A DNA stretch of 64,000 bases from an uncultured bacterium (GTDB lineage Bacteria > Elusimicrobiota > Elusimicrobia > Elusimicrobiales > Elusimicrobiaceae), in contig CASFTM010000002.1 in assembly GCA_949297775.1 (NCBI GenBank), forward strand, positions 1 through 64,000, written 5' to 3'. Below, piece after piece: positions 124-2,507 of the stretch. The notes below the pieces were generated by a model. It ran no database searches and was not told the DNA's origin. It saw only the letters and a program-made list of their open reading frames with translations. Both the position numbers and the translations under genes were made by a program. Position 1 is the first letter of the stretch; every line of letters starts with the position of its first letter.

Positions 124-300
124 TTACTTAAATTTAACCACTACAAAACACGCACTAAACGCCACGACCAGAAACACCCCGTACACCGTATAGCGCAGCA
201 CCGGCTGGCCGATAGCCGGGCACAGCCAATAAAACAGCGCGCACAATACGGCAAAAGAGATGATACCCACTGCATTGAATTTAAACGTTGGCTTCATCAT
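124..300 (-). CDS. Small two-TM membrane protein, lysA-lysC operon
   Basis: This 58-aa ORF reads MMKPTFKFNAVGII at its start and contains two hydrophobic stretches (about residues 9-27 and 36-54), so a two-pass inner-membrane protein is likely. Its ATG overlaps the lysC stop codon by one base (TAATG), which suggests translational coupling to the aspartate kinase, and a terminator follows at once. I do not recognise the family and assign no function. The ORF is short, but its position, coupling and hydrophobic profile argue that it is real. Confidence 0.55.
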   Translation of the reverse strand: MMKPTFKFNAVGIISFAVLCALFYWLCPAIGQPVLRYTVYGVFLVVAFSACFVVVKFK

Positions 301-1028
301 TATTTGATAACCGTCCCGGTCTGGCCCGTTTGATAGTGGACAATACGAATTTCCACCCCTTTTTCTTTCGCCAAACGCACCGCGTCCGGGTGCAGCACAT
401 TGGCGCCGTTTAAAGCGAGCTTGTACATTTCGTCAAAATCCAAGACTTCATACTTTTGAGCCTGCAAGTCTTTATTGGGATCGGCGGAGTAGACTCCGTC
501 CACATCTTTGACCATTTCCACATGGTCCGCCCCCAGCTGAGCCGCTAAAAACACGGCCGACACATCGCTCCCGCCGCGTTTTAAAGTGGTGATTTCTTTA
601 TTTTCGCCAATCCCCTGGAACCCCGCCACTATCGGCACATGTCCATCCTGGATCTCCCGCACCAGTCGGTTGCCTTTCAGCTCCAAAATATCGGCCCGAG
701 TATGGGTGCAGGTAGTAATTAAACCAATTTGCGAACCCGTCAGCGAAACAGACGGCACCCCTATCGCGCGCAAAGCGATGGACAACAACGCCACGCTGAC
801 GCGTTCGCCGGTAGTTACAAGCATATCCAGCTCGCGTTTATCGGGCGTAGGCGTAATGCTAAAAGCGTGGTCCAGCAGCACATCGGTCAAATTGCCGTTG
901 GCGGACGCTACTACGACCGGAATGAAGTTATTGTCATAGCGGGATTTAATCAAATCCGCCGCCATCAGGAGTTTTTGTTTATTGGCCAGCGTATTGCCGC
1001 CGAATTTCATAATGCAAATTTTTCTCAT
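300..1028 (-). CDS. lysC: Aspartate kinase, catalytic domain only
   Basis: This 242-aa protein phosphorylates aspartate, the first step toward lysine and diaminopimelate. The amino-acid-kinase fold is clear: KFGG near residue 8, a GERVS motif, TTLKRGGSDVSA, KDVDGVYSADP and GANVLHPDAV. Usual bacterial aspartokinases are about 400 aa or more because they carry C-terminal ACT domains that bind lysine or threonine. This one stops right after the kinase domain (GTVIK), so ACT-mediated feedback is not encoded here. The ATG at 1028 is chosen over a GTG at 1037 because GAGGTG lies upstream at good spacing. That site overlaps the lysA stop, which indicates coupling. Confidence 0.9.
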   Translation of the reverse strand: MRKICIMKFGGNTLANKQKLLMAADLIKSRYDNNFIPVVVASANGNLTDVLLDHAFSITPTPDKRELDMLVTTGERVSVALLSIALRAIGVPSVSLTGSQIGLITTCTHTRADILELKGNRLVREIQDGHVPIVAGFQGIGENKEITTLKRGGSDVSAVFLAAQLGADHVEMVKDVDGVYSADPNKDLQAQKYEVLDFDEMYKLALNGANVLHPDAVRLAKEKGVEIRIVHYQTGQTGTVIK

Positions 1029-1038
1029 AGTATACACC

Positions 1039-2289
1039 TCACAACCACGGCGCCAGCGCGTGGCCGCTGATCATTTCTTCGTACGAAGTACGTCTGCGTA
1101 CAACGGCGAATTGGTCCCCGTGCACCATCACTTCGGGCACGAGCGGGCGGAAGTTGTAAATGGACGACATCGCCGCCCCATAAGCCCCAGCACACATTAT
1201 AGCAAGTAGGCCGCCTTCCTGGACAGGCTCAATAATACGTTCGTGCGCAAAGACATCGCCCGACTCGCAAATCGGCCCGACGATGTCCGCAATAATGGGA
1301 GCCACGCCTTGTTTGGAAACGGGCAAAATGGTGTGCCACGCGTCATACAGGGCGGGGCGGACCAAATCGTTCATCCCGGCGTCCACAATGATAAAGTTCT
1401 TCTCGCCGTTAGATTTGGCGCAAATAACCTCCGTTACCAAAATCCCGGCGTTCCCGGCGATAGAACGGCCCGGCTCCACAATGATATGTTTGTGTAAATC
1501 GCCCAACGTTTCGCGCACCACTTCGGCATAAGCCTCGCAGGTGGGCGGGAGTTCCACATTGTAATTAATACCCATACCGCCGCCCAGGTCCACATTTTCA
1601 ATCGTGATACCGTCGGCCTCCAATGCGCGTACCATAGACGCAATTTTGGTAAACGCCAAGCGGAACGGTTCCAAATCCAACAACTGCGAACCGATATGCA
1701 CGGCAATCCCTGCAATGCGGATACCCGGCAGTTGGGAAGCTTTTACATACAGTTCGTGGGCTTCCTGCCACGGTACGCCAAATTTGTTTTCTTTGGTGCC
1801 GGTCGTGATTTTGACGTGCGTCAAAGCGTCCACATCCGGGTTGACGCGCAAAGCTAAATTGGCTTTTTTGCCTTGCGCCACGGCAATGCGGTTAATCATT
1901 TCCACTTCGGCGGCGGATTCGGCATTGATTTGCAAAATTCCCAGCCGCACGGCTTCTTCCAGTTCGGCTGCGGTTTTGCCTACACCCGAAAAAACGATTT
2001 TATCCGCCGGTATCCCCGCTTTAAGCGCTACATACATCTCCCCCGCGGACACTACGTCCGCCCCGCCGCCCAGCCGGGCCAGCGCCGCCACCACGCTCAG
2101 GTTCGGGTTGGCTTTTACGGAATAGCAGACCGTACCGTTCAAATCCGCCAAGGCGGTGCGGTACGCTTCAAAATTACGGGTGAGCTTATCGGTGGAATAG
2201 CAATAAAAGGGCGTACCCACTTTTTGGGCTATTTGTTTGATGTCCACTCCCTCCGCAAAAAGTTCTCCGCCTTGATAATGGAAACACAT
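1039..2289 (-). CDS. lysA: Diaminopimelate decarboxylase
   Basis: A PLP-dependent fold-III decarboxylase of 416 aa converts meso-diaminopimelate to lysine. Visible family motifs are YSVKANPN with the PLP-binding lysine, the HIGSQ segment, the VEPGRSIAGNAG loop, CESGDVFA and GAYGAAMSS near the C terminus. The start at 2289 is used because AAGGAG precedes it by a few bases; an upstream in-frame ATG at 2322 lies inside the terminator tail and is unlikely. It is the first structural gene after the lysine-codon attenuator and is followed by lysC at 10 bp. Confidence 0.95.
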   Translation of the reverse strand: MCFHYQGGELFAEGVDIKQIAQKVGTPFYCYSTDKLTRNFEAYRTALADLNGTVCYSVKANPNLSVVAALARLGGGADVVSAGEMYVALKAGIPADKIVFSGVGKTAAELEEAVRLGILQINAESAAEVEMINRIAVAQGKKANLALRVNPDVDALTHVKITTGTKENKFGVPWQEAHELYVKASQLPGIRIAGIAVHIGSQLLDLEPFRLAFTKIASMVRALEADGITIENVDLGGGMGINYNVELPPTCEAYAEVVRETLGDLHKHIIVEPGRSIAGNAGILVTEVICAKSNGEKNFIIVDAGMNDLVRPALYDAWHTILPVSKQGVAPIIADIVGPICESGDVFAHERIIEPVQEGGLLAIMCAGAYGAAMSSIYNFRPLVPEVMVHGDQFAVVRRRTSYEEMISGHALAPWL

Positions 2290-2328
2290 ACTTTTCTCCT
2301 TATATAATAATTGCAACCTCATAAAAAA

Positions 2329-2403
2329 CCCCCGCTTACAATTAAGCGGGGGTGTTGCAAATTTGTTTAAATGGGGCCGTTATTTATCCGCATAATTGTA
2401 AGC
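2329..2403 (-). promoter_or_regulatory. Lysine-codon transcription attenuator
   Basis: On the minus strand, a leader peptide with clustered lysine codons precedes a terminator (2329-2352: 9-bp stem CCCCCGCTT / AAGCGGGGG, loop of 6, six U). The segment at 2393-2403 is perfectly complementary over 11 bases to the terminator loop and 3' arm (2334-2344), forming an antiterminator. Its GCTTAC core can instead pair with GTAAGC inside the Lys codons (2397-2405 with 2438-2446, 9 bp). A ribosome stalled at Lys codons 12-18 would mask the latter and allow the antiterminator to form. This is classical attenuation logic inferred from sequence, and not tested. Confidence 0.75.
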
Positions 2404-2472
2404 AAGACCGCAAGAGCACTTTTTGCTCTTGATCTGTTTGCTTACACGTTTAACGGATAGAATCATTGCCAT
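2380..2472 (-). CDS. Lysine-rich leader peptide of lysA
   Basis: This 30-codon ORF has six lysines, five of them within codons 8-18 (codons 8, 12, 15, 17 and 18), overlapping the attenuator stem. It ends before the terminator at 2329-2352. There is no Shine-Dalgarno sequence, and the promoter places the transcript start at or next to the ATG, so translation is probably leaderless. An alternative start is the ATG two codons later. The peptide also has a C-S-C-G motif, so a small metal-binding protein cannot be excluded. The perfectly matched antiterminator makes a regulatory leader peptide much more likely. Confidence 0.65.
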   Translation of the reverse strand: MAMILSVKRVSKQIKSKKCSCGLAYNYADK

Positions 2473-2478
2473 AGATTT

Positions 2479-2507
2479 AGTATAGAAAAATTTTTCACAG
2501 CACGCAA
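2479..2507 (-). promoter_or_regulatory. Sigma70-type promoter of the lysA operon
   Basis: On the minus strand the -35 element TTGCGT (2507-2502) is separated by 17 bp from the -10 element TATACT (2484-2479). Transcription should begin about 7 bases further, at the leader-peptide ATG (2472). Confidence 0.7.

Follow-up and report, generated by a model that had tools for sequence, protein, structure and literature searches.

A probable lysine-specific transcription attenuator with a putatively leaderless leader ORF ahead of lysA-lysC in Elusimicrobiota

The lysA-lysC operon of an uncultured bacterium of the family Elusimicrobiaceae (phylum Elusimicrobiota) is preceded by a leader that is, with a probability of about 0.92 judging from its sequence, a ribosome-mediated transcription attenuator responding to the supply of lysyl-tRNA, with a leader open reading frame (ORF) that would be translated from a leaderless transcript. 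It lies in a stretch of 64,000 nucleotides (positions 1 to 64,000 of contig CASFTM010000002.1, assembly GCA_949297775.1), which is called the window below; the host genome is 1.69 Mb, and leader and operon are both read from the minus strand. The mechanism itself is known, the amino-acid specificity and the phylum are ones for which no description has been found in the open-licence literature, and some of the architecture is unusual. Comparison of related sequences shows lysine conservation at the codon level, alternative pairings and association with lysA; a leaderless start, translation, stalling and lysine dependence of the leader are what we infer.

In the proposed mechanism, the A of the leader ATG would be the first base that RNA polymerase transcribes, and a ribosome would load on the leaderless end of the transcript. 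When Lys-tRNA is plentiful, the ribosome would pass codons 8-18 and reach the end of the ORF; a segment inside the ORF (region 2) would then be either under the ribosome or held by an upstream segment (region 1), so that the GC-rich terminator would form and transcription would end ahead of lysA. If Lys-tRNA runs short, the ribosome would stall at one of five Lys codons, cover region 1 and open the hairpin that holds these codons, leaving region 2 free. Region 2 would take the emerging terminator loop first and then the 3' arm (together region 3), and the terminator would fail, so that lysA-lysC would be transcribed upon Lys-tRNA shortage.

Lysine Codons of the Leader Peptide

The leader peptide ORF (MAMILSVKRVSKQIKSKKCSCGLAYNYADK; 2380..2472, minus strand) has 30 codons and a stop codon, and is conserved in the 33 full leaders that were readable in the genus, of which 31 distinct ones were aligned. 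Five Lys codons among codons 8-18, reported by the initial annotation, are present on the minus strand within the ORF running from 2472 to 2380: codons 8, 12, 15, 17 and 18 (2451-2449, 2439-2437, 2430-2428, 2424-2422 and 2421-2419; within 2419..2451). A sixth Lys is codon 30. Five Lys in codons 8-18 ahead of lysA-lysC amount to the short-ORF enrichment by which leader-peptide attenuators are recognized. On the LysA tree, no change is inferred at positions 1 and 2 of the five codons, against 14 changes at position 3, all between AAA and AAG, while the other 13 codons compared show 83 changes at positions 1 and 2 and 60 at position 3 (Fisher P 1.3e-5). In relatives, where the annotation had proposed to look for conserved Lys codons, only synonymous changes are thus found within the genus, and therefore selection acts on these codons being Lys. 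This codon-level selection also lends indirect support to translation of the leader ORF.

Conservation of the ORF across the genus might equally be expected if it encoded a small functional lysine-rich peptide, the terminator being the end of its gene and lysA being expressed by read-through or from its own promoter. An orphan copy of the leader (L066, see below), which has a terminator and no same-strand gene downstream, would suit this explanation. The C-terminus of the peptide, however, is altered in two leaders: in L020 a base is inserted right after the Lys codons and the rest of the peptide is frameshifted, with the Lys codons, the terminator and the pairing between regions 2 and 3 intact, and in L032 an early stop occurs soon after the Lys codons, with the Lys codons and a terminator retained. 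Outside the Lys codons, positions 1 and 2 change freely, and in a sister genus and a further genome (G078) the peptide sequence is largely different save for the Lys codons. In addition, there is covariation between region 2 and the terminator loop, and the leader is absent from genomes without lysA. A functional peptide is very unlikely, because it is mainly the Lys codons that survive divergence.

Mutually Exclusive Pairings

The leader of 148 nt has a folding energy of -57.5 kcal/mol, compared with -31.7 +/- 3.5 for shuffled sequences (z -7.5). An intrinsic terminator hairpin (2353-2328, minus strand) followed by a T run (2323..2353 as a whole) is found in every leader examined. The annotation had correctly noticed the terminator and its T run, and had given the stem 9 bp, two fewer than the 11 pairs (7 of them G-C) found in the window. 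The antiterminator is formed by region 2 (2393..2407, inside the ORF, codons 22-27) and region 3 (2330..2344, terminator loop and 3' arm), both on the minus strand. Its core of 11 bp (2403-2393 with 2344-2334) is exact, as annotated, and it reaches 15 bp when G-U pairs are included (2407-2393 with 2344-2330); in many leaders it is 13-17 bp on the same basis. As it overlaps the terminator loop and 3' arm, it is mutually exclusive with the terminator. A worry that the antiterminator of this main clade leaves the G-run of the terminator free was partly rejected, G-U and G-C pairs extending into the G-run in most leaders.

Region 1 (2438..2445, minus strand) would protect region 2 if no ribosome is on it. 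The competing pairing that had been proposed for it exists, with a length of about 8 bp rather than 9 (2445-2438 with 2404-2397; 86.5% of cells in the alignment paired), and it encloses a second hairpin that holds the Lys codons. The stem of this Lys hairpin (2411..2431, minus strand) is CAAGAGC/GCTCTTG with the Lys-Lys codons in the loop; 95.9% of cells are paired, and 2 pairs are changed on both sides.

Compensatory changes in relatives, which the annotation had named as a check, are found in the antiterminator helix, in which 90.8% of cells are paired and changes on both sides occur at 5 pairs (23 cells). This covariation score was reached in 0 of 500 shuffles, and all five covarying pairs include bases of the terminator loop, which are unconstrained by the terminator stem. 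The covariation is solid but not huge. The device is also kept in two further genera, as described below.

Short complementary segments, TTGCAAC before and GTTGCAA after the terminator (2361-2311 in the window), were noticed by eye in several relatives; they would lengthen the terminator stem after read-through, and in L010 both sides differ and still match.

Folding with a Ribosome Mask

Each leader was folded without everything upstream of the leading edge of the ribosome, with half of the terminator 3' arm emerged. In this model, the antiterminator probability is about 1.0 for A-site codons 7-20 and about 0 from codon 23, and Lys codons 8-18 fall inside the former range. This range is stable when the leading edge is set to 9, 12 or 15 nt, and when the exposed part of the 3' arm is one third, one half or two thirds. 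With the ribosome at the stop codon, the antiterminator probability is 0 in all leaders tested but G078. If no ribosome is present, most leaders give a value that is low or 0, and high values are obtained for L006 (0.76), L034, L068 and G078. The model thus predicts that a stall at the Lys codons favours the antiterminator, and that a ribosome at the stop codon or its absence favours the terminator, the conditions not being separated in G078.

In the same model any stall at codons 7-20 yields the antiterminator, and the leader might respond to slowed translation in general, or to an antibiotic, instead of to lysine specifically. Lys is, however, the only residue that is invariant through these codons across the genus, two further genera still show it enriched, and the downstream target is the lysine operon; a general sensor of this kind is accordingly rated as highly improbable.

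Several points weigh against an attenuator of the proposed design. When the terminator is fully exposed, its predicted stability equals or exceeds that of the antiterminator in many leaders. In G078, the folding does not separate a ribosome at the stop codon from a stalled one, and in L032 the pairing of regions 2 and 3 is recognizable only with a bulge. By tree parsimony, the antiterminator covariation comes down to about six independent compensatory events. The antiterminator of the main clade uses the terminator loop and 3' arm, unlike that of the trp operon, which uses the 5' arm. Since the complete terminator is favoured again in many leaders, the switch must be kinetic, if the folding model holds: the terminator loop would be captured before the 3' arm is complete.

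Predicted Leaderless Start

On the minus strand, the elements upstream of the ORF are arranged in the downstream direction as TTGCGT - 17 nt - TATACT - 6 nt - ATG (2507 to 2470). The -35-like hexamer TTGCGT (2502..2507) has a counterpart in relatives, where a TTGC-like box recurs at a similar distance. The -10 hexamer TATACT (2479..2484) lies 6 nt ahead of the leader ATG, a spacing that is 6-7 nt in the genus leaders listed and in those of the sister genus. From the positions of both hexamers, the expected +1 is the A of the leader ATG, and the leader ORF is probably leaderless because its start coincides with this expected transcription start. The same suggestion in the initial annotation is strengthened by the constancy of the -10 spacing across species. 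In a strict sigma-70 consensus scan, the leader promoter was not among the matches.

Several full-length protein ORFs in the host genome (loci L143, L145, L147 and L152) also begin 6 nt past a TANACT box, which suggests that there are leaderless mRNAs beyond the leader peptide. A stricter leaderless-promoter pattern gave 8 matches in the host genome versus 1 in a reversed control. No other amino-acid leaders were recognized by the leaderless-promoter pattern scan of the host genome.

Lysine Riboswitch and T-box

The lysine riboswitch (RF00168) controls lysine genes, often via premature termination. Together with the T-box it makes up the usual RNA-based control of lysine genes, and the terminator described here stands at the usual place for them; the ORF would then be incidental. 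Nevertheless, covariance models of the lysine riboswitch (RF00168) and of the T-box (RF00230) gave no match in 90 genomes of the family, with controls detected. In the window, there is no Rfam match to a riboswitch or T-box at the gathering score, and the leader has only sub-threshold chance matches. Conservation of Lys at the codon level is not needed for an aptamer either. The riboswitch resembles the leader in controlling lysine genes and differs in binding lysine directly, and its control of this terminator, or that of a lysine T-box, is extremely improbable. The classical logic of amino-acid attenuation, to which the annotation had appealed, is thus supported, with both alternative RNA families apparently absent. 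None of the Rfam amino-acid leaders matched at the gathering score, Trp_leader reaching only 16 bits versus a cut-off of 41.

Distribution in the Genus, Family and Phylum

Of the 66 genomes of the genus, 35 have a match to lysA. When a covariance model of the leader was used to search the genus, a strong match accompanied lysA in 34 of these; the exception is G054, whose lysA is truncated by the end of a contig. No strong match to the model was found in the 31 genus genomes without lysA. The leader is thus present with lysA only, apart from an orphan second copy in G036. Matches below about 40 bits, inspected for several genomes, look like chance hits to the terminator alone.

Repeated loss of lysine synthesis, and of the leader with it, may account for the 31 of the 66 genus genomes that lack a lysA match. 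The orphan copy in G036 (L066 379-516; G036:C23:12279-12415) has a strong terminator, no same-strand gene nearby downstream, and no remaining pairing of regions 2 and 3, which leaves two readings, a relic or a free-standing small RNA.

In G091 and G092, both from a sister genus, lysA is preceded by the leaders MVNLISLKKAGIKIMGIKKSPYLSACDFVGK and MLTATVLKKAGKMTMGLKKAPYTFACDFADR. The sequence has diverged, the Lys codons and the terminator are retained, and the antiterminator is 15-17 bp; the stem of the Lys hairpin is swapped for pairs of the GGGC/GCCC type, with Lys-Lys still in the loop. In G078, a genome of a further genus that consists of a single contig of 1,643,562 bases, MLKNAKKTDSVKKGSKKTLGA stands ahead of lysA, with 8 Lys among 21 residues. 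Lys codons, terminator and antiterminator are kept there with a different sequence, and the 5' arm and loop of the terminator pair over 13 bp with sequence located past the stop codon, which is the classical layout.

Among eleven genomes drawn from other parts of the phylum, none had a recognizable Lys-rich leader ahead of lysA, nor was one recognized ahead of lysA in G079 or ahead of most of the divergent lysA genes of g5. A 26-codon ORF (MNTNIKPFAKQLKDKSSIKRLDFLRS) containing five Lys, together with a terminator, lies upstream of the divergent lysA of G089 (L114); it was not counted, as its alternative pairing is weak (7-bp), and perhaps it is an independent or degraded attenuator.

The lysA-lysC Operon and Lysine Feedback

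Between the T run of the terminator and lysA there are 33 nt containing a ribosome-binding site. lysA (1039..2289, minus strand) encodes diaminopimelate decarboxylase (Orn_Arg_deC_N and Orn_DAP_Arg_deC) with the conserved start MCFHYQ. An upstream ATG in the same frame (2322), immediately next to the T run, was rejected as the start of lysA, the conserved start being at 2289 (AAGGAG-N6-ATG). lysC (300..1037, minus strand), encoding aspartokinase, begins just after lysA in 29 of 29 genus loci examined. Its product is about 245 aa in the window and about 242 aa in all complete genus loci, and contains the catalytic AA_kinase domain of Pfam only, with no Pfam match to an ACT domain.

The host genome has two further AA_kinase matches; a 422-aa protein reads as glutamate 5-kinase, and the third match is likely UMP kinase. 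The host thus seems to have a single aspartokinase, which lacks an ACT domain, and allosteric control of this enzyme by lysine may be missing; transcriptional feedback would therefore be more important. A fuller reading, in which three genera of one Elusimicrobiota family rely mainly on this lysine-specific attenuator for lysine feedback, with a leaderless ORF and kinetic capture of the terminator loop ahead of the 3' arm, because the operon aspartokinase has no ACT domain, is tentative as a whole and somewhat more doubtful than probable.

Comparison with Known Attenuators

Leader-peptide attenuators have been surveyed for his, leu, thr and trp, plus ilv and phe (PMC3766115), and his leaders have been extended to bacilli (PMC2965389). 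In Actinobacteria, RNA control has been described for tryptophan, cysteine and branched-chain genes, lysine elsewhere being assigned to riboswitches (PMC1262725). A search of the open-licence literature found no description of a lysine leader-peptide attenuator, which agrees with the annotation, where none was known for this group.

The Elusimicrobiota leader shares with the trp, his, leu, thr, ilv and phe attenuators of Proteobacteria a short ORF containing codons of the amino acid that the operon makes, an intrinsic terminator, a mutually exclusive antiterminator and the use of ribosome position as the signal. In contrast to these, it is specific to lysine, which is in neither survey list (PMC3766115, PMC1262725), its region 2 is inside the ORF, the main clade captures the terminator loop and 3' arm instead of the 5' arm, and its ORF is predicted to be leaderless. 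In Sinorhizobium meliloti, trpL is described as leaderless (PMC10117765), with the leader ORF at the first AUG of the transcript and attenuation of an amino-acid operon, although it concerns tryptophan in an alphaproteobacterium and has 14 codons. The same paper proposes as a leader peptide SEP5, a small ORF that contains six Thr and three Lys codons and is located ahead of a gene for aspartate dehydrogenase; SEP5 is, however, dominated by Thr and not upstream of lysA, and the passage on it names no terminator or antiterminator. In mycobacteria, where leaderless transcripts are common, cysteine-rich upstream ORFs have been proposed (PMC4633059); they resemble the present leader as small upstream ORFs rich in the amino acid of the pathway, and differ in that the amino acid is cysteine and that the proposal is speculation only.

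A conserved lysine attenuator in Elusimicrobiota would add a specificity for which no description was found, lysine being assigned to riboswitches in surveys. It agrees with the suggestion, raised for other lineages, that such switches have been invented repeatedly (PMC2965389). The diverged versions in the sister genera are natural variants for dissecting how the antiterminator is built, including the loop and 3' arm type unlike that of trp. The leader also suggests how gut Elusimicrobiota with an ACT-less aspartokinase could adjust lysine synthesis.
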